From Aurantiochytrium sp. KH105 (Eukaryota; Sar; Bigyra; Thraustochytrida; Thraustochytriidae), in NCBI GenBank assembly GCA_003116975.1, contig BGKB01000096.1, positions 1 to 64,000 on the forward strand: DNA of 64,000 nucleotides, in the 5' to 3' direction. How positions within the stretch are numbered: position 1 is the first letter of the stretch; the number at the start of each line of letters is the position of its first letter. Under the pieces are notes generated by a model, which ran no database searches, had not been told where the DNA came from, and was given only the letters and a program-made list of their open reading frames with translations. Position numbers and translations under genes: made by a program. Below, in pieces: positions 12,944 to 44,073 of the stretch.

Positions 12944-14503
12944 ATGGCCAAGGGCGCGAAGAAGCTGCACGAGCGCGCCACGGAGCGGCGCCGCGGCGAC
13001 CAGGATGGCGGGACACAGGCCTCGGAGGCAGAGGGCCTGCCGTTCGACTGCTGCGCGCTCTCGCTAGCGCCGTGGACCTCACCCGTCATGGCGGTCGTTC
13101 GGGAGGGCCGCGGGCTGGTCTTCGAGCTCTCGCACATTGCGGTCTACGTCAAGAAACACGGCGTTGACCCCGTGTATCATAAACCGCTCGCGCGCGAGGA
13201 CCTCGTGACACTGCACTGGTCGCGAAACGGAGAGGGCAAGCTGCATTGTCCCGTCACTTTCAAGGTGTTCACGCAGTTCTCCAACATTGTAGCCATCCGC
13301 GACACAGGCAACGTCTTCAGCCGCGAAGCCGTCGAGAATCTTTGCATCCTGCCACGCGTGTGGCGCGATCCCATCACGAACGAGCAATTTGCCGGCCGAG
13401 AGGCGATCATCACTCTGCACTCTGCGCAGTCCCAATCCTCGGGAACGCCAACAACAGGGCTCGATGGTCCACCTTCTGCCAAGTCTGCCAGGAAAGCACC
13501 CGGCGCGTCTACAGAAAGTGCGCCTAGCATTCGGATGTCTGGCATCGCAGAACGCATTCTTCAGAAAGCTGAGGCTTCTGCGCGGAGACGCGCTGCCGCA
13601 GCGAGCAGTGCCCAGACATCCTCCGCCGATGTCAGCGTTGCCAAGTCTGCTGAGATTCAGACGTCCTTTACATCGGGTATGTGCGCAGCATCGTTGACAA
13701 GCACTGCGGTGACTCCTCAAACGAGCAACGCACGTCAGATTGCGAACGCACGCGAGCTGGAATTGCGCCGATATCGAGCCATTCGCCAGCTTAAAAAGAA
13801 AGCATATGCACGACTGGAGACCACGCACGGCGATCTAAATCTCGAAGTGTACTGCAACTTTACGCCGCAAACAGCAGAAAACTTTCTCGGTCTCGCGGAA
13901 AAGGGTTATTATGACGGTACGAGCTTTCATCGACTCATCCCGGGCTTCATGGTCCAGGGCGGCGATCCGACGGGAACGGGGCGCGGGGGCGAATCGCTAT
14001 GGGGCGAAGCCTTTCCGGATGAGCTTGATCCAGGAAACATGCATCTCAAGCACAGCAAACGCGGTATCCTGAGCATGGCGAATTCAGGGCCAAACACGAA
14101 TCGATCGCAATTCTTCATCACCTTTGCGCCAAAGGCACATCTCGACACCAAGCATACCGTCTTTGGGCGTGTAGTTGGCGGTCTGGAGGTTCTCGACAAG
14201 ATCGAGGCTATCAAGACCGGCAAAGACAACCTGCCTCTCGAGCCCATTACGATTAAGCGCGCTCTCGTTTTTGTCAACCCAATTCGCGAATTTGATAAGG
14301 CGCAGCAGGCACAGGAGCACTCTGACAGTGCCACGAACGAAGGCGTCGCGAACCCTGTAGCAGAATATGCAGAAGCCCGGCAGAAAGACGCTGAAAGCAT
14401 TGCCCCGAAGGCCAAGAAGCGCCGTGTTCGCGAAGAAGACGTCGCTGCAGCCCGCAAGCCTTCAAGGACGGGCGTGGTATTCAAGAACTTTAGTGACTGG
14501 TAA
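12944..14503 (+). CDS. PPIL2: U-box cyclophilin PPIL2 (Cyp60)
   Basis: PPIL2 is a nuclear peptidyl-prolyl isomerase fused to a U-box, associated with spliceosomes and with ubiquitin ligase activity. The 519-residue product starts with the family's basic leader, then the degenerate and canonical U-box halves at about residues 30-160 (LPFDCCALSLAPW, KLHCPVTFKVFT, RDTGNVFSREAVE, WRDPITNEQFAGREAIITL). A Ser/Ala-rich linker leads to a complete cyclophilin domain at about 283-445 with FHRLIPGFMVQGGDPTGTG, the catalytic-pocket MANSGPNTNRSQFFITF and HTVFGRVVGG. The C-terminal KAKKRRVREE is a probable nuclear signal. All pocket residues I can check are kept, so isomerase activity is likely. Single exon, ATG at 12944. 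Confidence 0.95.
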   Translation: MAKGAKKLHERATERRRGDQDGGTQASEAEGLPFDCCALSLAPWTSPVMAVVREGRGLVFELSHIAVYVKKHGVDPVYHKPLAREDLVTLHWSRNGEGKLHCPVTFKVFTQFSNIVAIRDTGNVFSREAVENLCILPRVWRDPITNEQFAGREAIITLHSAQSQSSGTPTTGLDGPPSAKSARKAPGASTESAPSIRMSGIAERILQKAEASARRRAAAASSAQTSSADVSVAKSAEIQTSFTSGMCAASLTSTAVTPQTSNARQIANARELELRRYRAIRQLKKKAYARLETTHGDLNLEVYCNFTPQTAENFLGLAEKGYYDGTSFHRLIPGFMVQGGDPTGTGRGGESLWGEAFPDELDPGNMHLKHSKRGILSMANSGPNTNRSQFFITFAPKAHLDTKHTVFGRVVGGLEVLDKIEAIKTGKDNLPLEPITIKRALVFVNPIREFDKAQQAQEHSDSATNEGVANPVAEYAEARQKDAESIAPKAKKRRVREEDVAAARKPSRTGVVFKNFSDW

Positions 14504-18147: not shown

Positions 18148-18914
18148 AGAGTAATAAAAGCAAACCAACTTACTGACCACAAACAGAGTTTTTCTTTGGG
18201 GAAGGGGGGGGGGGGCAGGTATATATAGATAGGCCTATCTCCCAATAGATTTCGTACTGCATGCAAGGTGAGTCGCAGGACTTTTGCAGTAGGACTGCCA
18301 CCCGAATAATCATTTTGAAATGTTGCATCGCTCTTGTTCGAGGCCATTCATTACACTGTGTTGACTCTGACCCGGAACCGTATGGTCGCATGTACATATT
18401 GGCCTTGTTGCTTGGACACGCTCTTTTCTCGCAACGCTGTTTTATAAGCAACCTTTTTTCCGGAACGAAAAAATGCTTGACTCCTCGCATCATCACTTCA
18501 GCGCTCGGCGCTCTAATATTTCCGTATTTTCTGGAGCTGCAAATCCCACTAGGCGAGGTCTTACTCGACCGGAGCTTCGCACGCTCGACCGGTCGTCCCA
18601 AGCTAGATCTCGCGAAAGCTTCCGGGCCCCAAGAACGAGTCGCCCCCCCCCCAAAAAAAAAGTGAACTTAGGCAAACTTGGGACAAAAAAAGACCGTTGC
18701 CCTGGGTCGAGTCCGAGTCCTCTGGTGCTTGTCGCTTAAGCAGCTCAGGCCGGGGGCGCAAGTGCGACTTGCTCAAAGCACGAGCCCCGCCCGGACCTTG
18801 ATGGCATCGGAGGGCTCGCGTCGCGGAGTCGTCGCCGATCGCGCTCATCGCGTAGGCGCTGCTGTACGGAGCAGCGCTGGATGGTGGAGACCCAAAGGCC
18901 AGGGCACGGTAAAG
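18148..18914. other. Spacer with homopolymer tracts
   Basis: A 767-bp spacer. It holds a poly-G run near 18203-18215 and a poly-C run joined directly to a poly-A run near 18648-18661. An open reading at 18261-18665 has no recognisable content. In-frame sequence upstream of the next gene includes an alternative ATG at 18801. Confidence 0.5.
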
Positions 18915-21900
18915 ATGGCGGCGGGCTGGCGGCCAACAACGAGGAGGAGGAGGAGGCGAAGCGCGCTGCAGGTCGTGTTGCTGAGCATGGTAATTGCCGT
19001 GACGACGGCGACGACGTGCACGCACCAGTGGCAAGTTCGTGCGACGCTAGAACCAGTTTTAGGTAGTGAGGAGTCCGTCATGGAGACTGTTGTGCGGTCG
19101 ACAGCTACAAAGGACAACAAAACATTCGCAGACGCAGCGCGCATGCGACTGCAGTGGACACTAACCCGTAAAGTTGGGGCCACTGGTTTCTTTGTGCAGG
19201 ACGAGCGCGCAACGGCGCAAGCAAGTGGCTTGGGCATTCTACCAGACGTCCTGGTGGACCCAATCTTTGAGGACACTGCTTGCGGACCGAACGATTGGTG
19301 CGGTTCTTTATCTCCACAAATTGCCTCGACGTCGTCAGAAGGATGGTTTGACGTCATCACCATCAATGACGCTCTTGGGTATGGTCCTGTGGTCATCACA
19401 ACGTCAACGCCATGGAGAAATCAGCAAGGTCGCATGGACATTTGCTCAAATAAAGTGGTTTTACGAATGCCTCTCTTGGAGCTTCTCGACATTACTGATG
19501 AAGAGCCATATGTAGAGCTCAGTGAGCTTCGAGAGCGTGCGGATTTGGATCACGCCACGTGGGCCGCGGCGGTACTTGCTCTCCCACCACATCTCGCGCG
19601 CGCAAATGACTGGAACACGCTTCGCGTTCTGAGCGTACCTGGCTTTTCATGGATCACAGCAGTCCTCGCCTATAATTCAAGCGCAAATGGAGCACACTTG
19701 TCACTTCAGGTATCGAGCAATTCCTTCCAGCAGATTGGATCTCGTAATTTTCCTGCGCTCGATCTCATGAGCATCTATCCGTTCCAGACTTCGCGCTCGG
19801 TCGTCCAATATGACTGGGATCTCCAACACCAAGGCGGCGACGCATACGATGGCAACGAAGAGATTGACACCTATCTCAACGCTTTGGTAGATGATGAGTT
19901 TTCATGGGAGACAGGACCTTGCGCAACATCACTTGGGTATTGGCGCCCTGAGCTCTGGTCTCTGGGAAGCATACTCGTAGCGCCCACGACGTGGGGTCTC
20001 GCATTTCGACGCGCCGATGACATGGGTCTGCATGAAGAGGAAATCATGGAAGACTGGGTGCCCCTTGCTCCTCTGTGCGGGCGCGTCTTGCCTTCTGCTC
20101 AGCTCGATCCCGTCGACAAGAATGCGGCTTGCGCATTCCTCTTTATTCCTGGACTTAGCAATACGACCGTTCAGCTTGAGGACGAGACGTATGATCACAG
20201 CCAGTTTAGTAATCTCACAATGCCCACAATCTTTGCTGCTGCAGGTACCGAGGGCACGTGCGAGCCAGGAGCAGAGCAGGTTGGCTTTCGCCTAACCGAG
20301 CTCAAAGATGCAAGCGGAGCAAACCTTCACGACTTTCTCGAGAGCCAAAACGAAGGCTTTATGGTGAACCTCGAGCTGGTAGATGCCGCGGCGATGCAGC
20401 CCAACGGCCTGGGACCCATTGTGGTTCTTGTACGCTTTGAAAGTGCCCACGAGACTTCTTTCCGAACTGTAAGTTATGAGAACTCGACGTGGGTTCTTGG
20501 TCTTGAGCTCCCTCAAAAAACAGTCCCGATTCCATTTCGCTCATTCTCGCGCGGGGAACGACTCTTTCCAAACATCGAACGTGAGCGAATCGCCCAGGGG
20601 GAAAACGGCACACACCTCGACATTCGCGGCGTGGACACTCTTCCAAGAATGTCTCAGCTGCTCTACACATGGGGCAACGCGCTCTTTGTAAGCCAAAATG
20701 CGGGTCACACGTTCTGGAAGGTGGCCCAGACATCGAGCTCGGTCATGATGGACCTCATGGACGTCGAAGCGAGCGAACTCGAAACCTTGCTTTTTGCTGA
20801 TGACCCAATTACTCGTTTCACCGCGGCCCAGGATGGATGGATTGCGGTGCTCACGGAAAATGCTCGCATCTGGCTCGGCAAGGCCGGAGCAGACGTTGTC
20901 TTCCCGCTGACTTTGAACTTGACCTCTTCGCTGGATCTCCTGCCTCCGTATGACCTCTTCTTTGACGAAGCTGGGGCTCTTCGCGTCACGGGCTTGGAGG
21001 TGACTGGTGTGGAGGCTGGCAAGCGGCAGGCTCGTCCTGCAGAGACCTTGAACACAGATCGAGTCAAGGATCTTGCACTCTACTTTGATGAGAACGACCC
21101 GGAATGTCTTTTGGATGACGCTCTCATTGTTGCAAAACATGATGTCGAGCACACGCGCACTGTATACAAGAGTGCAGGGCTTACGACCTCCATGGCGCGC
21201 GATGTGCAGGCCCATGGATTTCGCAACACCCTCCCTTCGCGCATCTTTCTTAATCGTGGGGGCAACTACACTTTTCGAATTAGGCTTTTTAGCGCTGTTG
21301 AGCACAACGAGATTCCACATCAGCAGGTCGCTACACTCGCTGGACTGCACGTTGGTTTCGAACTTAGCACGCAGGAACTCATTTCCTTGAGCTTTCAACG
21401 CCAAGAAAACCTTATCGAAGGCACGGTCGACTACGATGTGATGTTGGAGGATCGAGGCCGCTGGGATCTGACAAGTAGTGTTCTCAAAGCCCCATATGAT
21501 GCCGAGATGCTAGCAGCGACCCATGCCCAGCCAGGGAGCCAGCTTTTAGTCACAAGCGTTGGCATTCGAGGCTTGAGTCAAGGCTGCACATCTGAAGTTG
21601 ACCCTGCCGCACTCGTGACGAGGACCTCGGCCTCGCCAGCCATTCGGCTAGATGTGTACTCTGGGTGCCCGCCGCATCAGCGGTTGGAATTTGACAGAGA
21701 AGCTAGTCTCGATGGCGTCAATCAGGGCTGTGAGGAGACCGATGAGGACATTTGCGTATTTTACGACAATACCTTTACGCCTCGTTTCCGTCTCATTGAC
21801 AGCAGCATCGACGCAAGCACAATTCTGGATGCAAGCTTTGGAGAACTCATTGCCATCGGAGGCGGGCTCACCTACGACACTATTGTCGATTATCCTGAAA

Positions 21901-22535
21901 ACGATCGCGCTGCCTTGACGCTCGCTTCGTTCTCTGTCAGCTCCACAAGCACCGTTCGCTGGCTGTGTATGGCGGCAAGCAGTCCTTGCGCAGCGGTGGC
22001 TCCCGAGTTTCCCAAGCCCCCCCAATACTTTTTCAAGCTCCGCCTCGTGGCAACCTCGAACGACTCGTACTGCGACTTTTCCACGGACTTTGTTGTCCGC
22101 ATTCATAATCTACCAATCACACTGCAAGCTATCATGGTCACCAACGGCATCACGATCATGGTCTGTATGATTCCACTTCTCTACTTTTACAATCGCAGAC
22201 AAAAGCGGAACCAACACAAGCGCCTTCGTGGTTTGCGCGGCGTTGGAATGATGGATCTTGCCAACGGCGCACTTGACTTGGACAAAAACTCGGATTCGGA
22301 CCGGTCTTCGGATAGTTCTGATGATGATGCAGAGAGTCCGAGGCGTGATCGCAGCAAGACCCGAAGAGGAAGCAGGAGTCGAGGCGACGACGAGGATGAA
22401 GATGAAGATGACGAGGACGATGAAGATGAAGATGAAGATGACGACGAGGTTGATGACGACGACGACGAGGACGATGAAGATGACGACGACGGGATGGACG
22501 GGAACAGAGCTAGTGGTCGCGCGCGACAACAATAA
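18915..22535 (+). CDS. CatSper auxiliary-subunit-like type I membrane protein
   Basis: About 1,206 residues from the ATG at 18915, chosen because it places a basic n-region and a hydrophobic signal sequence right at the N-terminus (RRRRRRSALQVVLLSMVIAV). The frame stays open upstream with another ATG at 18801. The long ectodomain carries propeller-like blades (LLYTWGNALFVSQNAGHTFW, ITRFTAAQDGWIAVLTENARIWLG) and ends in a stem with YFFKLRLVATSNDSYCDF and FVVRIHNLP. One membrane helix follows at about 1072-1095, then a short basic and very acidic tail. That architecture is that of the CatSper beta/gamma/delta/epsilon subunits, which cap the flagellar Ca2+ channel. I cannot say which subunit. 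The two flanking genes to its right are also flagellar. Confidence 0.6.
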   Translation: MAAGWRPTTRRRRRRSALQVVLLSMVIAVTTATTCTHQWQVRATLEPVLGSEESVMETVVRSTATKDNKTFADAARMRLQWTLTRKVGATGFFVQDERATAQASGLGILPDVLVDPIFEDTACGPNDWCGSLSPQIASTSSEGWFDVITINDALGYGPVVITTSTPWRNQQGRMDICSNKVVLRMPLLELLDITDEEPYVELSELRERADLDHATWAAAVLALPPHLARANDWNTLRVLSVPGFSWITAVLAYNSSANGAHLSLQVSSNSFQQIGSRNFPALDLMSIYPFQTSRSVVQYDWDLQHQGGDAYDGNEEIDTYLNALVDDEFSWETGPCATSLGYWRPELWSLGSILVAPTTWGLAFRRADDMGLHEEEIMEDWVPLAPLCGRVLPSAQLDPVDKNAACAFLFIPGLSNTTVQLEDETYDHSQFSNLTMPTIFAAAGTEGTCEPGAEQVGFRLTELKDASGANLHDFLESQNEGFMVNLELVDAAAMQPNGLGPIVVLVRFESAHETSFRTVSYENSTWVLGLELPQKTVPIPFRSFSRGERLFPNIERERIAQGENGTHLDIRGVDTLPRMSQLLYTWGNALFVSQNAGHTFWKVAQTSSSVMMDLMDVEASELETLLFADDPITRFTAAQDGWIAVLTENARIWLGKAGADVVFPLTLNLTSSLDLLPPYDLFFDEAGALRVTGLEVTGVEAGKRQARPAETLNTDRVKDLALYFDENDPECLLDDALIVAKHDVEHTRTVYKSAGLTTSMARDVQAHGFRNTLPSRIFLNRGGNYTFRIRLFSAVEHNEIPHQQVATLAGLHVGFELSTQELISLSFQRQENLIEGTVDYDVMLEDRGRWDLTSSVLKAPYDAEMLAATHAQPGSQLLVTSVGIRGLSQGCTSEVDPAALVTRTSASPAIRLDVYSGCPPHQRLEFDREASLDGVNQGCEETDEDICVFYDNTFTPRFRLIDSSIDASTILDASFGELIAIGGGLTYDTIVDYPENDRAALTLASFSVSSTSTVRWLCMAASSPCAAVAPEFPKPPQYFFKLRLVATSNDSYCDFSTDFVVRIHNLPITLQAIMVTNGITIMVCMIPLLYFYNRRQKRNQHKRLRGLRGVGMMDLANGALDLDKNSDSDRSSDSSDDDAESPRRDRSKTRRGSRSRGDDEDEDEDDEDDEDEDEDDDEVDDDDDEDDEDDDDGMDGNRASGRARQQ

Positions 22536-22816
22536 TGGACATAGTGGAGACTGTCTCTTGCTTTGTTTCGCCTTTATGAAAAACAAAAACAACAAAAATA
22601 TCGTTTGTAGTGTGTGCATTGCATGCTATGCGTTTTTGCTTTTTCTTTCCTCATGTCGCGATTCATAACAAGTTGATACTAGACTGTAAGAGTGCAGCCT
22701 GATTGATAAGTGAACGCACAACGGCCGAAAATGTTTCTTTTGTTGACTCGCTGTCAAGTATACATTGGAATTAGGAGAGTGCATTCATTCATTTATGCAT
22801 TTATTCGTTTCTTTGT

Positions 22817-23818
22817 TCATGCATCGATAGATAGGCGCTCCTTGCGCGTGAAGATACCACAGCCAGTAATTTCGCAGCGACCCATGGGACGTTCATTCTT
22901 TCGTGGCATGCCTTCGATGGCAAAAAAGGCGTCCATGCCGTAAACAACACGTCCAAACGCAACGCGCTTGCAATCGAGCCACTTAAGCGGAGCCAACGTT
23001 ACAAAAAATTGGCTGCCGTTCGTGTGTGGCTTTCCCTCGCTTGCCATGGAAACAACCCCAGCGCTATCGTGCTTGATGGCAAAGGTTTCATCGGGGAATC
23101 GCCCGCTCTTGTCAATCGCTGCGACGCTGTGTTTGCCAGAGCCATCAACGACATCGCCGCCTTGAACCCACCCGCCTTCGACGACTCGATGAAAGGACGA
23201 CCCCTTGTATCCTTGACCAACATTGTTTTCTTGACAGAGGAGCACAAAGTTATCGCACGTGTTTGGGCAAATATCATCATAAAGTTCAATGACAACACGG
23301 TGCCTCGAACCCGATGCCGATGGCGCTCCAGGATTCTTCTCTTCCGCGTTTTCCTTGCACTCCTTGCACTCGTGGTCTGGGCTGGACTGCTTTCCCTCCT
23401 CATCTTGGTCAATACTTGCATGTGGGCTTGCTGTCGCCAGAACATCAAGATAACAAAAGGTGTGGCCTGTTGCATCCATCATGGCGTGAAGGTGCGAATG
23501 TGCGGCGCCCTCGAAAATGCTAGTGTCAAGCACGCGCTGAAAGTCGTAGACTTTGACGGCCCAGGTCGCGAGATCATGGACGTCGCCAATGTAGTGGTGT
23601 TTGTTATAGAACACTAGCGGCGAGGAGGTATGCTCCACGCCGAGCTCGCGCGATTTGGTGGCAACAAAAACCTCCCAGTCTGTGCCAAACATGGGTCGCA
23701 CGTCCACCGTGACATTGGCCTGCTCGTGCGCCAGCTGCTCTGCATGGCTCTGCGCGGCCTGGAAACACGGGTCGTCCACGCGACCGGCCACCACGAGGTT
23801 GCACGACGTCGTCGACAT
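22817..23818 (-). CDS. PPIL6: Cyclophilin-like protein PPIL6
   Basis: A 333-residue product. The first half (to about residue 165) is not cyclophilin: it has the PPIL6-specific region with SPLVFYNKHHYIGDVHDLATWA. The second half is a cyclophilin domain with VIELYDDICPNTCDNF, FHRVVEGGWVQGGDVV, VSMASEGKPHTNGSQFFVTLAP, a VAFGRVVYG strand and the NERPMGRCEITGCG ending typical of PPIL6. The canonical catalytic Arg is kept in FHRVV. PPIL6 is found mainly in organisms with motile cilia. Here it lies tail to tail with the CatSper-like gene (281-bp spacer) and head to head with DRC10. Its exact role in cilia is not known to me. Confidence 0.88.
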   Translation of the reverse strand: MSTTSCNLVVAGRVDDPCFQAAQSHAEQLAHEQANVTVDVRPMFGTDWEVFVATKSRELGVEHTSSPLVFYNKHHYIGDVHDLATWAVKVYDFQRVLDTSIFEGAAHSHLHAMMDATGHTFCYLDVLATASPHASIDQDEEGKQSSPDHECKECKENAEEKNPGAPSASGSRHRVVIELYDDICPNTCDNFVLLCQENNVGQGYKGSSFHRVVEGGWVQGGDVVDGSGKHSVAAIDKSGRFPDETFAIKHDSAGVVSMASEGKPHTNGSQFFVTLAPLKWLDCKRVAFGRVVYGMDAFFAIEGMPRKNERPMGRCEITGCGIFTRKERLSIDA

Positions 23819-24481
23819 GCTTTGCTCGCCGCTGTCCTTTCGGAGGGTCTTGTTGTCTCCGGGTCTGCGCGCGTCACCTCTCCAGAGTCCTCCTGCCCGC
23901 GCTCTGCGCAGTGGAGCTAGCTAGCTGGGCAGGCCGCACGCTAGAGAGAGCAAGCGACAGAAAGGGAGACAGGAAAGAGAGGGAGATTTGTCTATTTGCG
24001 AAACGGTGTGTACTTCGAGTTCGGGCATTTGGACTCACTGTTTGACTCGCGCCATTGAAGTTCGACTTCCGAGGTGTCTCATCGCGTTTCACAACGGATA
24101 GTGAGCGCGGCGCCATGAGGGAAGTGGCTGGCTTCGTCTGGCCCACGCTCGCTTGGGGTACGAAGTCGCTGCGCGCGCGCTGCGAAACAACCCGTCGCGG
24201 GCAAGAGGAGTACTCGGCGCGTAGGAGCGACGCGACCAGACGCTCGTTGACGTTTTCCCGACGTCTTTTGGCAGCTTGCAGGGGTCTGTCTGTCTTTCTG
24301 CGTGCAACTAGCGCGAGCAAAAACGAGGCAAAGCGGAGCTTGTGGAAAAGGACTTACTAAGCGTCCTTTCTGGCATTTCCTGGCGGGCAAAGCATCCTTG
24401 CAGCTCTCCAGGAGCTGCAGTTGCAGTCGCAGTCGCAGTATCAGGCGCAGCTGCAGCTGCAGAAAACCTTAATTGCTGAAA
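23819..24481. promoter_or_regulatory. Shared divergent upstream region of PPIL6 and DRC10
   Basis: A 663-bp intergenic region between two head-to-head flagellar genes, a layout that could permit co-regulation. It contains tandem GCTAGCTAGCT text near 23916-23929 and a CAGCTGCAGCTGCAG / CAGTCGCAGTCGCAG repeat at about 24405-24462, just upstream of DRC10. No coding region I can support. Confidence 0.4.
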
Positions 24482-25870
24482 ATGAATAAGCTTATTCGCG
24501 GCGAGGCGTCGCGCGTCATTGCCGTCTTGGACGATTCCCTTGCCGCTTTAGACGTCGTTCTCGAGCTACCGCCTTCTGGGGTCAGCGGCAACAAGCTTGC
24601 CGAAGCGGAGCGCCAGTGGGAGATTGCCAAGAGCAACCTTGGAAAAGCTGGCTTTTATGAAGCGCGCGATCATCTCGAGGGCTTGCAACATGCCGAGGCA
24701 CAATATCTTAAAGCAAAGCGTGCCAATGCGCGAGAACAAGCCGACCTTGCGGCTGCTGCTCTTCATGAGGCGACGCGACACATGTGCCGAAGCGTTCGCA
24801 AGGATCCAGCCGTGGGCGAAATCTTAGCAGCAGCCGCAACAAGCACGCCAGATGACGTTCACGATGAGAGGAATGCCGCAGATAGTACCGCTTTTCACGG
24901 CGACGAGAGGCTAGAAGACGCCCGCAACTACGAAGAGGAGAAGCGTGGTCGCGAGACCAAGTCACAGGACAGTGTCGAGTCAAAGACCAGCTATAGTAAA
25001 AGATTGGCGGTACCCTCCCCCGTCGAGCGAACGCCAAGTCGAGGTGGCATGGTTCCAGGCGGTGGTGGCGGGGGAATGCGCAAAGAGCACTCGTTGTTGA
25101 CATTGCATGGGACACTTCACGAGTTCCGGAAAAACATCCTTGACCAGTTGTCAACCACCGTCGAGCAAAAGGACGCGCAAGCTGACTTTTTCCAAGATCT
25201 AAATGTTCGCATTCGAGAAATGGAAGAGGATTTGGTCCTGCTCAAGAACGAATTGGAGGTCGAGGCAGTGCGAGAGGAGGAGCTTGCGTCAAAGAAAGAG
25301 GCTGAAGACAAGCTATGGCGCGCCATTGAAGAAGTGCGCAGCAGCTATGAGCGCGAAATGGTGGAGATAAACACTTCGCAAGCTGAGCAAAAGGAGGCAG
25401 TACGAACGAGCTTCCTCGAGCGCAATGCCAAGGCCCTCGAGGCCTTTGATAAGGCTGGGGAAGCCTTTGTGCAAGAGTGCGTGGCACATGGCGAAGTCGA
25501 AGAAGGTTTACGCAAGAAGATGAATCGCGCGGTAGTAGAGGTGAACTCGCTCATTGACAAGTACGATGCCGTCATGCTTGAGAAGCGCGCACAATACGAG
25601 CTTGTCAAACGACAACACAAGGACGAGTCCGCCCGGCTGGCTGTGTTGGAAGAGTATTTTCGCAAGGTCGATCGTGACCTTGCAAACGAGGCGGAGGAAG
25701 AACGCATTATTGCCGAGGAACTGGCTGCGATTGAGGCGCTTCATAAGCGCGACAACGACGCAGCAGCGCGCATCCAGGCGCTCTTTCGAGGGAATCAGTG
25801 CCGTCGGAAGCTGAAAAAGAAGAAGAAGGGCAAGGGGAAAGGCAAGAAGGGCAAGGGGAAAAAGAAGTGA
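24482..25870 (+). CDS. DRC10: Dynein regulatory complex subunit DRC10 (IQCD)
   Basis: DRC10 is a subunit of the nexin-dynein regulatory complex that links doublet microtubules and regulates dynein in motile axonemes. The 462-residue protein from the ATG at 24482 begins with the family's helix (GEASRVIAVLDDSLAAL), has a disordered middle, then a long coiled coil at about 205-425 including LHEFRKNILDQL, FFQDLNVRIREMEEDL and VNSLIDKYDAVMLEK. It ends in one IQ motif (AARIQALFRGNQCRRKL) and a Lys/Gly tail of repeated GKGKK type. The domain order, IQ position and Lys-Gly tail match IQCD; the sister subunit DRC9/IQCG is the main alternative. A frame extension of three codons upstream begins with TTG and is not needed. 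Confidence 0.8.
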   Translation: MNKLIRGEASRVIAVLDDSLAALDVVLELPPSGVSGNKLAEAERQWEIAKSNLGKAGFYEARDHLEGLQHAEAQYLKAKRANAREQADLAAAALHEATRHMCRSVRKDPAVGEILAAAATSTPDDVHDERNAADSTAFHGDERLEDARNYEEEKRGRETKSQDSVESKTSYSKRLAVPSPVERTPSRGGMVPGGGGGGMRKEHSLLTLHGTLHEFRKNILDQLSTTVEQKDAQADFFQDLNVRIREMEEDLVLLKNELEVEAVREEELASKKEAEDKLWRAIEEVRSSYEREMVEINTSQAEQKEAVRTSFLERNAKALEAFDKAGEAFVQECVAHGEVEEGLRKKMNRAVVEVNSLIDKYDAVMLEKRAQYELVKRQHKDESARLAVLEEYFRKVDRDLANEAEEERIIAEELAAIEALHKRDNDAAARIQALFRGNQCRRKLKKKKKGKGKGKKGKGKKK

Positions 25871-31503: not shown

Positions 31504-34500
31504 TTAGGCAGCTGAAAACCCGTGGCCGTCTTCTACGGTCTTGGCCTCAGGAACCTTGGCTGCCTGACGCCGACGGCGCCACAATACCGCAAGAGTGGAG
31601 ACGACAATTATCACGACGGCTGCGCTTACGCCGAGTCCAATAGCAAGAGCTTGCGAATCGTCTGAGGAGGTTGCAACATCGCCCTGCTCTTTGTTGGTCC
31701 CGGGTTGCGCCAGTTCACTCGGTAGCACCTGTTCACGCTTCGCTTGTACCGCCTGCTGTTTCATTTCCAAGGTCTCCTCAACCCACGGCACCAGCGACGC
31801 AGTATCTGCATATGCATCAACAGGAAGCTCAGGCACCACAAACTTCTTGGTCATGGCTCCGGCGGCAAGGACACGACGACGTCTGCTGCCAGCAACGACA
31901 TCCTCGGCGGCGTTGCCGAACAAGTCGTGAATACCCTGGAGGGTAATCTTGACAGTCGAGTTACTCCATGCGGCAGCCTTCTCTGCATCCACATCCACCA
32001 TTGCCACGGTGAGGTCGTAAAGCTGTCCAGCGCACACAATGGTCGCGTTGAATGTCATGGTCTCTGCATCATCCGTTACAATCGCTTGGAGATCATCGTG
32101 AGCGCAGTCGACGGGCTCATCGAAGCGGAAGGTAGCCATCGGAAAAGAGCTTAGTCCAGTTTTCACGCTGCTCACAGGTGCCCAGTTCATGAGAATGGGC
32201 CCCGTAGTATCAAAGACACCAAGACGTCGGCTCGAAAATGCCGATCCGGCGCCTCGACCATCGCTTGCGCAGGTTGCCCGCAGCTCCAAGAGAAACCTAC
32301 CCTCTGCGACCCCAGTTGCCTCAAACTGTGCCAGGGTCAGGGGACTCGTCGGACCAAAGCTCGGCACTTGGAACCACGAATTCTCGTCAATCGTAGACCC
32401 GACAAAGCGCGTCGCCCAGAGCGTAACCGTTGAAGACACCGAGGAATCTGAAGCTTGTCCGCGCGAAAAAGCAAGCGGCAATGTTGGCGAGCTTGAGGTC
32501 AAGGCCCACGTTGCCGCCGGGTCGAGGAGAGCGCCGTCCCAGTCGATGGCCGGGCATTCTGTGGCCCAATTGAGTCTGAACGATAAGGATCGAGAGATGC
32601 TCTCATCACAGGCAGAAGCGACGGTAATAACAACAGTGCTGGACAAAACGAGCTCGTCAAGCCGTTCGTAAAAGACGGTTACCACTTGATCAGTGCCCGC
32701 GTCCATTGTGATATCTATCGGCTGGTGAAGAGAGGAGGCACCCACGGTGTACGCGATACTTCCTGTTGCGCTCTCACTGTCGACCGAAATTCTGAGATCG
32801 ATCGAATCGTCGTCATTGGGCATAGTAGACGTGTCGATGCGAAACGAAAAGCTACCCTCGTTCTCTGTAAGCTCGGTGTCAGGATTCTTCTCCGTTGTAA
32901 GCGCAAGTGCCTCCCTTGCGTCCGTGCCGTCGATGTGTGGGCAGGAGGTGATGCCGCCGCATACGCGATAGACAAAGGTACCACTGAATGGAGAAAGGAA
33001 GACCTCCAAACAAAGTTCGTTTCCGCTGGCCCCGGGCTCAATGTGGGCCAAAATCTCGTTGGAAGAGTCTACACCCTCAGTGACCGTGCGCTCAACAGAA
33101 GTTGATTCCTGAATTGAGACCGACGATGTTGCCTCCACTGACACTTCAGCGGAAACGAAAATAGCATCTTCAGACAAACCCGCTCCAATTATGGCACCGA
33201 GACTATCGCTCTGGGACCTTGACCAAGACGAATAGTCAACAACCGTTTCCGAAGCCACAGATCTGGTCTTGGTAAACTCGTAGCTTGATCCGCTCAGTTG
33301 AAGGCGGTTGTAGTCAGTCAAACTCGCAGCAGGCGCCAGTGTTTGCAGATTGACAGGGTTCAGGTACGCAGCTAGCTTGTCAAGATCCCAGTGTCGGAGT
33401 AGGGCTTGCCAGCGTTGCTGCTCTTGCCGTGCCTGCTCAACCAAGCTCTCAGATTCTGGATCATCCTTTTCAACTTCAATGGTTTTCTCAATGAAGTCTA
33501 AAGCACTCTGGCAGGCGGAGCGCGAGTAGTACACCAGCGACGAGACCTTGCTGCCCCACACGATGCTTGGTTCGCCGAAGATACTGCATGAGGCTTCGTC
33601 CAAAGATACACTGACGGCTTCCGTGACTGTGGACGTGCCACCCATGAAATAGACCATGTCCGAGTTGCTGCCGGGCTCTTCGGAAGACGTCGCCAAGGTG
33701 ACCGTTTGTGAAGCAGTTTGGACTCTCACCTGATCGTCGTACGAGAGAACTCGCGCAAAGACAGTTTCAGAGGTCGTCTCTAAAGAAGAAGAAACAAAAG
33801 AACCGAAGGCTTCTAGACTGGCAGAAACGCTGACGCCAAGTCCAATGCCGTTCTCCTTTTCAACGACTGCTTGCATGCTCGTTTGCGTTGTGTACGTTCC
33901 AGTGTAGGTAAGCTGCGAGAATGATCCTTCGCCGCCGGGCGGCGAGTAAACATACTCGAGAGGCAAGGAGTTCTCGCTGACAAAGGCAAGAGTTTTGTCC
34001 TCCAGCACCGTCTTTTCGCCAAGAATAAGCGCGCTCCAGGTCTTCGTGCTCGTGGCAGACCAGACCTTGTCGTTTCTGATATAAAGCGTCACTTTGCGCA
34101 CATAGTCCTGCAACTCGTCGCCGTCAGTAGGGTTCTTGGGTTCCCCAGCGACAACATCGACATACACGACGGAACGATTCAAGGTGTGGACCTCTCCAAT
34201 GCTAAAGTTCCCCGTGCACGGCTCATTCGTGTCGCAGGCAATGTCAATCTCCGGAGCCAGTTCGCTGGCTACTTCGATTGTCGTATTCGGCGGAAGAACG
34301 GCGCAGACCTGATCATTGAAAGTTTGCGACGAGGTGACTCTCAATGAAATTGTCTGGCTTCCCTCGACGATATCGTCAAAGGCGCCAGATGTACATTCTG
34401 CGGTGTCGAACTGAAGATTGCCAGACTCGACGTGAAGGCCGATTTCGGGCTCAGGCTCATGCAGCACACTCACAGTCGAGGCTCCAGAGGTAAGGTTCAC

Positions 34501-37143
34501 GTGCCGAGCCGAGGTGTCGACAGGAAACTGGAATTCAAAGCTGTTTCGAAGAGTCCCTTCGGCATCGTCGTCGCTAAAAGCCACGTCGAGAATGTAATTG
34601 GCTGCTGGTACTTCGAGGACTGTTTCAACAGTGTCGGTAGAATAGGATAGTGTAATCTCTGGACAAACTTGCACTTCGAGATCTATGTTAACGCCACCGA
34701 CATTGAAGCCGCACTGAGTGGATCCCACGAGCAAGGTGAGTGCACGTGTCGTCTCGTCCCAGACTTGGACACCTGCAATGTTTTCGCTGACCTGGTAGCC
34801 TCCGGTTGCGAGAAAGTCTGCGTAAGTCGTTCCGTCGATGCCAAAGGTGTGATCCTCCAATGTAAAAACGAGACGCGTTTCTGTGTTATGGGGAACGCTG
34901 ACCACGAAACTACCGTCGCTCTCGGAGTAGTTGGCCGCGATAGCGACAGACCCAGATTCTCCGGCATTGAATGCTTCGACCAGGACATTGGAAACGTCAC
35001 ACGAGGCTTCGCCAAAACTTTGCTTGATCGTGCCCTTGATCGAACGGCTCAGCGTGTCGACAAGACGAATGTCGTACTCGTTGAGATGCTCGATGTCAAA
35101 TGACGCAGGCAGAGTCAATGCATTGTCGAGCGTGCAGGTCTCATCGAGTGGGCAAAGCTTGATGTCAGTATCAATGCCAGTCTTATTTGCGCTGATAATT
35201 GTCACCTCCGTTGAATACTCATTGGTCGAGTCTTCGTAAAGGTCACCGGTGATACGACCTTGACCATTTGTCGTGAGGTACTGCTCTGTACCGCTCCCGA
35301 CCTTGACGGCAAGAACGACATCATTTGACCCGGCGTTGCCATTGATATCATTTACCAGAAAGTTGCCACGGGCGTGGAAGCGAATTTTCGTGACCGTACA
35401 AGACTTAGCCGTCTCTAATTCCGTGTTAGAGAGGTCGTTTAAGGCCCCCCACACGTCCGGTTTCATCAGACCGGGCGCCCAGACGAGGCTTACGCATCCT
35501 TCGACCTCATCTCCAATCTTCGCACTAGAAGAAAGAGTTATGGTCGATGCAGCCTCGATTTTGTCCTGGAAGTTTTCCTCGCAAGTGTCAACTTCATTTT
35601 CCACTGTTTCCGTTGGGTCGGTGTCCTTCCAAAAGATTTGGAAACTATAACTCCCAACAACATCTTGATGAATCATGGAATTGAACGAAGCCATGAAACT
35701 GACACTTGCATCAGACTGGGATGAAAACGTCTGGACCAAGGCCCAGCCGTTTGCGTGCTGGGACTGGGTGGGAATGGCATACTCGGAAAAGTCGAAATTA
35801 GAAGGCTGAGGCTGATAGTCGAGCCCGCTGAGATGCTTGCCAAGAGCAGAGTCTCTGCAGACGTTATGCTCGCAGGCGGTGCCACTCTTCTCCGATTCAC
35901 ATGCGTTCGTGTCGCTGGGCTCTAGAGGCGATTCAAGACCTTCCACAGCGCAGAATTTCCCTCCAGGACACGGAGTTTTCTCGCCATTTGCACAGTAGAA
36001 TCCGATCGGACAGATTTCGCAGCTATCCAGTCCATCTCCGGGGTCTGAATTGGTGATGTAGTAGCCTGGAAGGCAGGTGTGGCAATCCTTGAGTCCAGAG
36101 AAGTGCATGCGACTGGGGTCGACCTGTATTTCGTTCGTCGCAGCTTTAGCTCTTTTCAGCCAGCAGGTCTTAATATCTGCCTTGTGAGCGAACACAACGC
36201 AATTCGCATTTTCCTGGCACAGACGACGGCAGTGGTGCGGCGTAGACACTTCTTGCTTCCTCCCAATATCATGACTATTCCAGTCAATATCTTTCACCAT
36301 GCAACCAGGCGTCTCGTAAACGTTGGCAATTTTGCGCGCCAAGTCCTCCTTCTCAAAGTCGTTCTCACAGTACAAGCTTCCAGTGACCCTCGTCGTCGTA
36401 CTGTCGGGCCTTGTGTAGCTGCCCTTTTTAGGCGCGGTGGATGACATACTGCATCTCTGCATTGCGGAATCATACGCCCATCCAAGACAAGGTACTTGAT
36501 TCACCGTTGCTTCCTCGTAATCTTGGTTAGATCTCGCCCACGAGCATATGTAGGGCGAGTCGGCGACCTTGACAGTGAGCTTGTCCGGGGGATGGCTCCC
36601 TGTCGCGCCAGTTGTAGCCGTTCGAATGTCGCTGCTATAGCTGTTGTATTTGAACTGGTCAAAAACATACCAATACGAAGATTCCCGCCAATCCGTCATT
36701 TGGCCCCTATAGCATGGCATCACAGTCCAACCGCTAATGGTGTTTTGCTTAAATTGGTTTGTGTCCCCTGCGCGGCTCTTTTCGCAGTCCCAGCGTGCTG
36801 TGTTTTCAACATAGCAGCCTTCGTGACGAAAGATGGCCTGGTACGAGGAGGACTTGTGGACTTGAATCCCACGAAATTTGGAGTTTTTCCAAGATTCAAA
36901 GCAGATATCTTGACACGCCCCAGCAGATACAACGCCGTCCACATGCGCATCTTCGGCAAAGTCGCGAGACATCGGGCTGTCCTTCCAGTCATGATGACCA
37001 AGAATGACGCAGCCGGGGAACTTGGTGATGACGCTCGCTCGATTTGCGACATTCTGCGTCACAACAGACTCGGCGACGCTTATAATGCTGGCCGCCACCA
37101 GCATCGCTAGCGCTACCAGCGCTAGCATAGCGGCTTTCATCAT
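31504..37143 (-). CDS. Giant PAN/Apple-domain type I membrane protein
   Basis: A 1,879-residue single-exon product from tandem ATGs at 37143. A signal peptide covers residues 1-25 (AAMLALVALAMLVAASI). Cys-rich repeats follow: an N-terminal region with FPGCVILGHHDW, then a PAN/Apple-like module at about 280-350 (PGCMVKDIDW, HHCRRLCQENANCVVF, CWLK), then a GCC2/GCC3-type Cys cluster (CHTCLPGYYI, CEICPIGFYCANGEKTPCPGG). The remaining 1,400 residues are beta-rich ectodomain that I cannot assign, with many Ser/Thr. One membrane helix (about 1830-1853) and a 25-residue tail ending EDGHGFSAA close the protein. It is probably a cell-surface adhesion or receptor-like protein; the ligand is unknown. 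A truncated paralogue lies downstream. Confidence 0.85.
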   Translation of the reverse strand: MMKAAMLALVALAMLVAASIISVAESVVTQNVANRASVITKFPGCVILGHHDWKDSPMSRDFAEDAHVDGVVSAGACQDICFESWKNSKFRGIQVHKSSSYQAIFRHEGCYVENTARWDCEKSRAGDTNQFKQNTISGWTVMPCYRGQMTDWRESSYWYVFDQFKYNSYSSDIRTATTGATGSHPPDKLTVKVADSPYICSWARSNQDYEEATVNQVPCLGWAYDSAMQRCSMSSTAPKKGSYTRPDSTTTRVTGSLYCENDFEKEDLARKIANVYETPGCMVKDIDWNSHDIGRKQEVSTPHHCRRLCQENANCVVFAHKADIKTCWLKRAKAATNEIQVDPSRMHFSGLKDCHTCLPGYYITNSDPGDGLDSCEICPIGFYCANGEKTPCPGGKFCAVEGLESPLEPSDTNACESEKSGTACEHNVCRDSALGKHLSGLDYQPQPSNFDFSEYAIPTQSQHANGWALVQTFSSQSDASVSFMASFNSMIHQDVVGSYSFQIFWKDTDPTETVENEVDTCEENFQDKIEAASTITLSSSAKIGDEVEGCVSLVWAPGLMKPDVWGALNDLSNTELETAKSCTVTKIRFHARGNFLVNDINGNAGSNDVVLAVKVGSGTEQYLTTNGQGRITGDLYEDSTNEYSTEVTIISANKTGIDTDIKLCPLDETCTLDNALTLPASFDIEHLNEYDIRLVDTLSRSIKGTIKQSFGEASCDVSNVLVEAFNAGESGSVAIAANYSESDGSFVVSVPHNTETRLVFTLEDHTFGIDGTTYADFLATGGYQVSENIAGVQVWDETTRALTLLVGSTQCGFNVGGVNIDLEVQVCPEITLSYSTDTVETVLEVPAANYILDVAFSDDDAEGTLRNSFEFQFPVDTSARHVNLTSGASTVSVLHEPEPEIGLHVESGNLQFDTAECTSGAFDDIVEGSQTISLRVTSSQTFNDQVCAVLPPNTTIEVASELAPEIDIACDTNEPCTGNFSIGEVHTLNRSVVYVDVVAGEPKNPTDGDELQDYVRKVTLYIRNDKVWSATSTKTWSALILGEKTVLEDKTLAFVSENSLPLEYVYSPPGGEGSFSQLTYTGTYTTQTSMQAVVEKENGIGLGVSVSASLEAFGSFVSSSLETTSETVFARVLSYDDQVRVQTASQTVTLATSSEEPGSNSDMVYFMGGTSTVTEAVSVSLDEASCSIFGEPSIVWGSKVSSLVYYSRSACQSALDFIEKTIEVEKDDPESESLVEQARQEQQRWQALLRHWDLDKLAAYLNPVNLQTLAPAASLTDYNRLQLSGSSYEFTKTRSVASETVVDYSSWSRSQSDSLGAIIGAGLSEDAIFVSAEVSVEATSSVSIQESTSVERTVTEGVDSSNEILAHIEPGASGNELCLEVFLSPFSGTFVYRVCGGITSCPHIDGTDAREALALTTEKNPDTELTENEGSFSFRIDTSTMPNDDDSIDLRISVDSESATGSIAYTVGASSLHQPIDITMDAGTDQVVTVFYERLDELVLSSTVVITVASACDESISRSLSFRLNWATECPAIDWDGALLDPAATWALTSSSPTLPLAFSRGQASDSSVSSTVTLWATRFVGSTIDENSWFQVPSFGPTSPLTLAQFEATGVAEGRFLLELRATCASDGRGAGSAFSSRRLGVFDTTGPILMNWAPVSSVKTGLSSFPMATFRFDEPVDCAHDDLQAIVTDDAETMTFNATIVCAGQLYDLTVAMVDVDAEKAAAWSNSTVKITLQGIHDLFGNAAEDVVAGSRRRRVLAAGAMTKKFVVPELPVDAYADTASLVPWVEETLEMKQQAVQAKREQVLPSELAQPGTNKEQGDVATSSDDSQALAIGLGVSAAVVIIVVSTLAVLWRRRRQAAKVPEAKTVEDGHGFSAA

Positions 37144-39518: not shown

Positions 39519-41108
39519 CTAGACCACAAGAGCGGAGAGAACAGTCACCACGACGGCTGCGCTCACACCGAGTCCAGTAGCGAGGCCTTGCGAACCGCCT
39601 GATGCAGGAGGCCCAATGCCGTCAACATAGCAGCTATCCGCTTTACCATAACGGTTTAGCTTGGTAGGATAGAAGCCTGGAAGGCAGGTATGGCAATTTC
39701 TGAGCCCAGAGTAGATATCGGTGGAGTATGTGTGGTCTGTCGCAGCAATAGCTTCCTTTAGCCAGCAGAGCTGATCTATTGCCCTGTAAACAAAAACAGC
39801 GCACTTCCGTTTTTTTTGGCACAAACGACGGCAGTCGTGCGGAGTATCAACTCCGTAATGTCGTTTGATATATGCTCCCGATCCTCCTCTCCATTCCGAA
39901 TCCTTGACCATGCAACCAGGCATATCTTCAACCGGAGTTACCTCGCCATCTGCACAGTGGTGGTATTTGGTCGGACAGATTTCGCAGCTATCCAGTCCAT
40001 CTTCTGGGTCTGAATTGGTGATGTAGTAGCCTGGAAGGCAGGTGTGGCAGTCCTTGAGCCCAGCGACATACATTTGCTCGGAGCCGACCTGTTTTTCGTT
40101 CGTCACAGCTTCAGCTGTTTTCAGCCAGCATACCTGATCAGTCCCTCTGTAAACGAAAACAACGCAATTCGCATTTTCCTGGCACAGACGACGGCAGTCG
40201 TGCGGTGTATCCGCTGCATGCTTGCTCCCAATGTCATGACCATTCCAGTCAATATCTTTCACCATGCAACCAGGCGTCTCGTAAATGTTGGCAATTTTGC
40301 GCGCCAAGTCCTCCTCCTCAAAGTCGTTCTCACAGTACAAGCTTCCAGTGACCCTCGTCGTCGTACTATTGGGGCTTGTGTAGCTGCCCTCCTTAGGCGC
40401 GGTGGATGACATACTGCATCTCTGCATTGCGGAATCATACGCCCATCCAAGACAAGGTACTTGATTCACCGTTGCTTCCTCGTAATCTTGGTTAGATCTC
40501 GCCCACGAGCATATGTAGGGCGAGTCGGCGACCTCGACAGTGAGCTTGTCCGGGGGATGGCTCCCTGTCGCGCCAGTTGTAGCCGTTCGAATGTCGCTGC
40601 TATAGCTGTTGTATTTGAACTGGTCAAAAGTATACCAATACGAAGAATCCCGCCAATCCGTCATTTGGCCCCTATAGCATGGCATTACAGACCAGTCGGT
40701 AATGGTGTCTTGCTTAAATTGGTTTGTGTCCCCTGCGCGGCTACTTTCGCAGTCCCAGCGTGCTGTGTCTTCAACATAGCAGCCGTCATGACGAAAGATG
40801 GCCTGGTACGAGGAGGACTTGTGGACTTGAATCCCACGAAATTTGGAGTTTTTCCAAGATTCAAAGCAGATATCTTGACACGCCCCAGCAGATGCAACGC
40901 CGTCCACATGCGCATCTTCGGCAAAGTCGCGAGACATCGGGCTGTCCTTCCAGTCATGATGACCAAGAATGACGCAGCCGGGGAACTTGGTGATGACGCT
41001 CGCTCGATTTGCGACCTTCTGCGTCACAACAGACTCGGCGACGCTTACAATGCTGGCCGCCACCAGCATCGCTAGCGCTACCAGCGCTAGCATAGCGGCT
41101 TTCATCAT
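39519..41108 (-). CDS. Short PAN/Apple-domain paralogue, truncated
   Basis: A 529-residue product from tandem ATGs at 41108. Residues 1 to about 385 match the long paralogue closely, including the signal peptide, Cys-rich N-terminus, PAN module and CHTCLPGYYI cluster. It then has an extra PAN module not present at that place in the long protein (PGCMVKDSEWRGG, HDCRRLCQKKRKCAVF, CWLKEA) and a second CHTCLPGFY cluster, and lacks the 1,400-residue ectodomain. It ends with the hydrophobic segment GLATGLGVSAAVVVTVLSALVV at a TAG. With no cytoplasmic basic stop-transfer, it could be held by the bare helix, processed to a GPI anchor or released; sequence alone does not decide. It may be expressed, as the frame is otherwise clean. 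Confidence 0.8.
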   Translation of the reverse strand: MMKAAMLALVALAMLVAASIVSVAESVVTQKVANRASVITKFPGCVILGHHDWKDSPMSRDFAEDAHVDGVASAGACQDICFESWKNSKFRGIQVHKSSSYQAIFRHDGCYVEDTARWDCESSRAGDTNQFKQDTITDWSVMPCYRGQMTDWRDSSYWYTFDQFKYNSYSSDIRTATTGATGSHPPDKLTVEVADSPYICSWARSNQDYEEATVNQVPCLGWAYDSAMQRCSMSSTAPKEGSYTSPNSTTTRVTGSLYCENDFEEEDLARKIANIYETPGCMVKDIDWNGHDIGSKHAADTPHDCRRLCQENANCVVFVYRGTDQVCWLKTAEAVTNEKQVGSEQMYVAGLKDCHTCLPGYYITNSDPEDGLDSCEICPTKYHHCADGEVTPVEDMPGCMVKDSEWRGGSGAYIKRHYGVDTPHDCRRLCQKKRKCAVFVYRAIDQLCWLKEAIAATDHTYSTDIYSGLRNCHTCLPGFYPTKLNRYGKADSCYVDGIGPPASGGSQGLATGLGVSAAVVVTVLSALVV

Positions 41109-43991: not shown

Positions 43992-44073
43992 CCTCGACGT
44001 ATCTATTTGGAATTTACAGCCACTTTGCTAGCTAGCGAGTTCTGTGCGAGTAAACACAATTGTAGGAATGGTC

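Follow-up and report, generated by a model that had tools for sequence, protein, structure and literature searches.

The stretch of DNA analysed here, referred to below as the window, covers the first 64 kb of contig C96 (contigs are given as C plus a number) in the assembly of the thraustochytrid Aurantiochytrium sp. KH105. Within 7 kb of the window lie three consecutive uninterrupted open reading frames, which are assigned to the gamma subunit of the CatSper channel (CATSPERG), the cyclophilin PPIL6 and DRC10, a subunit of the nexin-dynein regulatory complex (N-DRC) (Table 1). A preliminary description had placed a CatSper subunit, PPIL6 and DRC10 side by side at this locus; the open frames are as it stated, and matches in Pfam and PDB bear out all three names. 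The assembly comprises 76 Mb in 367 contigs. Most of the genes searched for occur twice, on different contigs and at nearly the same score, which suggests that the assembly contains both haplotypes of a diploid. Introns are few or absent: genes form long open frames, and dynein frames of more than 4,000 codons run unbroken.

Table 1. Features of the CATSPERG-PPIL6-DRC10 interval, in window coordinates.
Feature	Position	Strand	Description
Predicted CATSPERG orthologue	18915..22535	+	1206 aa; Pfam and PDB matches
CATSPERG_Ig-like domain, residues 772-848	21228..21458	+	Pfam PF22851
CATSPERG_C domain, residues 1010-1084	21942..22166	+	Pfam PF22846
Predicted PPIL6 orthologue	22817..23818	-	333 aa; PPIL6-type N-terminal domain (about 9-133), radial-spoke-type cyclophilin domain (172-321)
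Divergent intergenic region PPIL6/DRC10	23819..24481	.	663 bp between start codons
Predicted DRC10 orthologue	24482..25870	+	462 aa; alignment to DRC10 chains over residues 211-462; tail rich in Lys and Gly; IQ motif at residue 431

The first frame is identified from its sequence as CATSPERG. The preliminary description had tied this assignment in advance to CatSper-subunit models, one of which, CATSPERG_C, matches the protein over its cut-off (E = 1.5e-11, 44.9 bits against 27.6), so the assignment stands. The CATSPERG_Ig-like match falls just under its cut-off (8.8e-6, 26.1 bits against 27). In PDB, the gamma chains 9ubw_F (3.5e-13) and 7eeb_F (4.7e-13) align with residues 913-1073. Gamma is the sole CatSper subunit among the six PDB sequences that match the protein up to E = 10; beta, delta and epsilon chains are absent from them. 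Hydropathy alone places hydrophobic segments at about residues 16-36, near the N-terminus, and at about 1066-1092, which suggests a single-pass type I protein with a large ectodomain, the layout of the known gamma subunits (7eeb, 9ubw). The protein contains 17 cysteines and 9 N-glycosylation sequons, and ends in an acidic tail of ~110 residues. This long tail, an N-terminal region that is unrecognisable by sequence, and a protist rather than an animal host set it apart from those subunits. Another start codon could be chosen, as the frame continues open upstream and has a further ATG at 18801. Searches of the same genome with the gamma protein returned weak matches to residues 1075-1205 on C46 (4.6e-4) and C86 (4.7e-4). 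We rejected these as gamma relatives, attributing them by judgement to the acidic tail.

The second frame is assigned to PPIL6 by both domains of its predicted product. When the whole protein was compared with PDB, the top two of 160 sequences were PPIL6 chains of mammalian axonemes (7.9e-47 and 1.3e-45), with radial spoke protein 12 (RSP12; 3.7e-37) and other cyclophilins ranking behind them. The N-terminal 171 residues alone matched nothing but PPIL6 up to E = 10 (9.2e-9 and 3.1e-6). The cyclophilin domain alone scored about alike against RSP12 (131.2 bits) and the two PPIL6 chains (126.7 and 130.1 bits). The stretches GW[VI]QGGD and NERP, which are of the spoke type, are common to this protein, PPIL6 and RSP12 (8j07, 9fqr, 7jtk) and do not occur in the two ordinary cyclophilins compared. 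The protein differs from PPIL6 in having about 40 additional residues between both domains, and in the stretch KRVAFGR it carries Arg as RSP12 does, at a position occupied by Phe or Tyr in the two PPIL6 chains. PPIL6 and RSP12 are given as counterparts in PMC6367277. In bovine sperm axonemes, PMC11779644 places PPIL6 in radial spokes 1 and 2 (RS1 and RS2), where it contacts AK8 and forms, with RSPH1 and DYDC2, a pocket holding CAMK4. A second cyclophilin-domain gene, encoding 519 residues, lies at 12944-14503 (+) in the window, ~4.4 kb upstream of the gamma gene; its product is 42% identical to the PPIL6 protein, in the cyclophilin domain only.

The sequence of the third frame identifies it as DRC10 (IQCD), distinct from DRC9. 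DRC10 chains in PDB are matched at 2.8e-12 (9fqr), 1.7e-6 (8j07) and 3.4e-6 (8glv), and weakly at 0.59 (9y6s); no DRC9 chain occurs among the PDB matches up to E = 1. The IQ motif, which scores 18.6 bits in Pfam, under the cut-off of 20.3, and the Lys-rich tail are shared with DRC10, in addition to the aligned region. The N-terminal part differs, aligning only insignificantly to DRC10 chains. A relative of DRC10 with 30% identity over nearly full length is present at C236:51609-52907, on a single contig, and is possibly DRC9 or a diverged DRC10. In the bovine sperm study, the N-DRC contacts the microtubule-binding domain of dynein f-alpha through DRC9/DRC10 (PMC11779644).

The three genes recur on the second haplotype in the same order and orientation, at C147:140438-147378. 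Between the alleles, the gamma and PPIL6 genes are each 98% identical, and DRC10 reaches 971.5 of 976.2 bits. The ratio of nonsynonymous to synonymous polymorphism (pN/pS) comes to 0.144 over 1204 codons of gamma and to 0.110 over 333 codons of PPIL6. These low values indicate that both are kept as proteins, under purifying selection. Three non-coding stretches are 91-95% identical between the alleles, against 97-98% for three coding stretches; in the PPIL6/DRC10 intergenic region, the allele comparison covered 202 bp and gave 95% identity.

Profile searches of the genome point to further components of the same channel. A CATSPERB gene is present, with a CATSPERB_C match at 3.2e-41 (5.2e-42 in a second scan). 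A CATSPERD/E gene matches CATSPERD-E_C at 2.7e-33, and in PDB its product ranks epsilon (2.3e-28) ahead of delta (3e-22). The best PDB match overall of one pore gene is CatSper2 (1.1e-64). For three others, the best single-domain PDB chain is CatSper3 (8.8e-43, among the best 60 of 170 matches), CatSper1 (2.5e-36, best 60 of 168) and CatSper4 (1.2e-31, best 60 of 150), respectively; these CatSper1-, 3- and 4-like labels rest on PDB match ranking and were made without a tree. Their selectivity filter stretches read TLDDW (CatSper1-like), TLDQW (CatSper2), TLDSW (CatSper3-like) and TQEGW (CatSper4-like). Each of the non-gamma genes is found on two contigs. From these sequences, seven CatSper subunits (1-4, beta, gamma and an epsilon-type subunit) appear to be encoded in this genome. 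The complex differs from the known one in that the delta propeller model PF15020 has no match anywhere in the genome, which does not prove absence. The presence of an epsilon-type gene without a recognised delta fits a published account of epsilon as ancient and delta as a later arrival (PMC5362262). Six further candidates with an Ion_trans domain were rejected as CatSper on their filters: L068, L070 and L071 carry TVGYGD, and L073, L074 and L075 carry SVGYGD, TIGFGD and SIGYGT.

The preliminary description had also suggested a zoospore stage, and the gene repertoire agrees with a flagellated one. In addition to the remaining CatSper genes, genome profile searches recovered 20 loci of dynein-heavy-chain type as well as TPH, DM10 and HYDIN-like genes, which together support a flagellated stage on sequence grounds. 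The HYDIN-like model is not specific, as it also matches 4 of 14 prokaryote controls. Thraustochytrid zoospores are described as biflagellate in PMC12221091, which reports a time course of Aurantiochytrium limacinum; the main-text passages searched name neither CatSper nor the axoneme. Two further instances of proximity were recorded. The CatSper4-like gene L072 (C14:334944-335645) lies ~15 kb from a HYDIN-like match (C14:350824-351060), and the two are also close on the other haplotype (C76:311910 and C76:296491); the HYDIN-like frame, of 4854-4875 codons, is long enough for direct adjacency with the CatSper4-like gene. A dynein heavy chain gene and a TPH-domain gene are ~10-15 kb apart on both haplotypes (C18:300239-317375 and C73:111627-124299).

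We then assessed whether the arrangement of the three genes is more than chance. Gamma and PPIL6 stand tail to tail with a 281-bp gap, which leaves PPIL6 and DRC10 as the one pair for which a shared promoter is possible. The 663-bp divergent gap between these two, which the preliminary description had read as a common promoter, is confirmed as a gap, but neither its size nor its content singles it out: the other divergent gene pairs identified in the window are spaced by 515, 568, 1575 and 4902 bp, and no shared promoter signal was found. Upstream regions of five of the eight flagellar genes or pairs (gamma, PPIL6/DRC10, CatSper1, 2 and 3) were compared with 18 other upstream regions of the window. 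An X-box was present in none of the 5 or the 18. Words shared among the flagellar promoters showed no excess over random sets, since the observed count was reached in 156 of 300 permutations for 7-mers and 53 of 300 for 8-mers.

Close pairs of flagellar genes were counted in a sample of 46 flagellar-type gene positions, with one haplotype used per gene and the trio treated as one locus. This sample is small and of low power; it may include genes that are not flagellar, such as cytoplasmic dyneins, and contains one DHC_N2 frame of only 1,921 codons. Against expectations of 0.50, 0.81 and 1.47 further pairs within 10, 16 and 30 kb, the sample contained 0, 1 and 2, respectively. The haplotype used for the dynein/TPH pair was C18; on C73 the pair is closer, with 11.5 kb between the starts of the matches, and using C73 would give 2 pairs within 16 kb against 0.81 expected (Poisson probability about 0.19). 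In simulations of random gene order, at least one run of three flagellar genes arose in 6.5%, 21% and 56% of genomes when 250, 400 and 600 flagellar genes were assumed, with estimates of 38 Mb and 16,500 genes per haplotype. The gene identities are far beyond chance; for the adjacency, this has not emerged from the counts.

These counts bear on the proposal that the trio is a selected, co-regulated cluster, in which PPIL6 and DRC10 would be driven by a bidirectional zoospore promoter and gamma would share their open chromatin, channel and axonemal regulators being made together as a result. Such a cluster would explain why three flagellar genes adjoin within 7 kb on both haplotypes and why PPIL6 and DRC10 stand head to head across a 663-bp gap, and the two other loosely close flagellar pairs would fit it. 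The sample nevertheless holds no excess of close pairs, the divergent gap is ordinary and no promoter word is enriched over random choices. Moreover, the other six CatSper genes lie on six other contigs, though possibly of a shared chromosome, and two haplotypes of one organism provide no independent evidence of synteny. We regard a selected cluster as unlikely, and the earlier suggestion that clustering reflects co-regulation is not supported.

The preliminary description had also proposed looking for more flagellar genes nearby. Pfam was run on 25 of the 28 longer frames of the window (leaving out those at 44066, 47817 and 50696), and no other recognisable flagellar gene was found among these 25 proteins. 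The proteins matched outside the trio are housekeeping or unrelated ones: glutamine amidotransferase/SIS, CENP-C, VPS4-like, the second cyclophilin, phosphatase inhibitor 2, DHHC, phosducin-like, two PAN proteins, RNA methyltransferase, TauD, GTPase, NUDIX, RING and Rab/Ras. A rhomboid-like membrane protein matched below the Pfam cut-off. Six of the 25 had no Pfam match, and coiled-coil axonemal proteins are poorly detected by Pfam, with DRC10 itself drawing sub-threshold matches only, so an axonemal gene may have been overlooked in the window. The two PAN-domain genes are in tandem (31504-37143 and 39519-41108, both on the minus strand) and have near-identical N-termini, which makes a local duplication likely. 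Elsewhere in the genome, a PfaA-like polyunsaturated fatty acid (PUFA) synthase occurs in pieces at C72:311448-314912, C155:172083-175544, C290:39390-42377 and C61:32-2791. The best of these PfaA-type pieces scores 930 bits against a model cut-off of 1010, and 11 of 14 controls give weak matches; the pieces on C155 and C61 reach the contig end on the acyl carrier protein (ACP) side. Such a synthase suggests a labyrinthulomycete (thraustochytrid).

Taken as a whole, the data make it probable that the interval consists of three flagellar genes brought side by side by chance gene order, and that gamma belongs to a multi-subunit CatSper channel. Several observations weigh against this. Upstream of residue 772, the gamma protein has no CATSPERG match in Pfam or PDB. 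A single-sequence structure model of gamma residues 740-1120 had a mean predicted local distance difference test (pLDDT) score of 29.6, which made it useless, and it was discarded. For the CatSper1-, 3- and 4-like genes, CatSper chains score below four-domain voltage-gated calcium channel (CaV) chains, partly because phmmer sums several domains, and for the CatSper1- and 4-like genes they also score below voltage-gated sodium channel (NaV) chains. Among 199 Ion_trans candidates, 150 were scored and ten were read, so further CatSper-like channels are possible. Finally, the two loosely close pairs (CatSper4/HYDIN-like, ~15 kb; dynein/TPH, ~10-15 kb) leave room for a mild clustering tendency.

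Some of these points would be expected if the 18915 protein were a membrane protein descended from gamma that had lost its role in CatSper, and if some of the pore genes encoded other one-domain channels: the gamma match is confined to the C-terminal part, and CaV chains score higher for three of the four pore genes. Against this, CatSper2 tops the matches for its own gene, and the beta and epsilon-type subunits are present with strong scores. The partners found follow the pattern predicted for a working complex, and gamma is under purifying selection. We consider this reading, for gamma and the pore genes together, very improbable.

Gamma, PPIL6 and DRC10 are each represented by one allele pair in a diploid, near-intronless protist, and their order probably reflects chance in a compact genome. 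Gamma is part of the extracellular canopy of CatSper in published structures. Here, it would sit in the canopy of a Ca2+ channel composed of CatSper1-4, beta, gamma and an epsilon-type subunit and, by homology, would lie in the flagellar membrane of the zoospore and contribute to Ca2+ entry. PPIL6 would be the spoke-type cyclophilin of RS1 and RS2, and DRC10 the IQ-motif subunit of the N-DRC; both would be components of the axonemal apparatus by which the dynein beat is tuned. The head-to-head PPIL6/DRC10 pair may be expressed in common. Flagellar location, channel function and expression in zoospores are what we infer for these products. They would combine Ca2+ entry with axonemal regulators near possible sites of Ca2+ signalling; a direct functional link between them may exist and is not demonstrated by gene order. 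A bolder proposal holds that a seven-subunit CatSper, with no delta found, lets in the Ca2+ by which dispersal zoospores steer, a use of a sperm-type channel outside gametes, and that gamma, the spoke cyclophilin and the IQ-motif N-DRC subunit mark a functional locus at which Ca2+ signals could meet the axoneme. We think this combined proposal improbable.

CatSper is best known as a channel of animal sperm. Two oomycetes have been recorded as having homologues (PMC4820453), and stramenopiles are named among CatSper holders in PMC10120453. The searched text of the 2008 paper cited there contains neither "stramenopile" nor "heterokont" (PMC2572835). For zoospore membranes of Phytophthora parasitica, PMC12223298 gives none of three annotated calcium channels as resembling CatSper2, and retention of CatSper among flagellated fungi is not universal (PMC13358043). 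Among the open-licence papers listed in the literature searches, we found no report of CatSper in thraustochytrids, which is no proof that none exists.

The main interest of the locus is the near-complete CatSper set in what is probably a labyrinthulomycete; the gene neighbourhood carries little weight unless its order proves conserved. Thraustochytrid-type protists can be transformed. An ancestral, non-gametic role of the channel, in the steering of dispersal spores, would become directly testable in a culturable protist whose CatSper gene set is near-complete.

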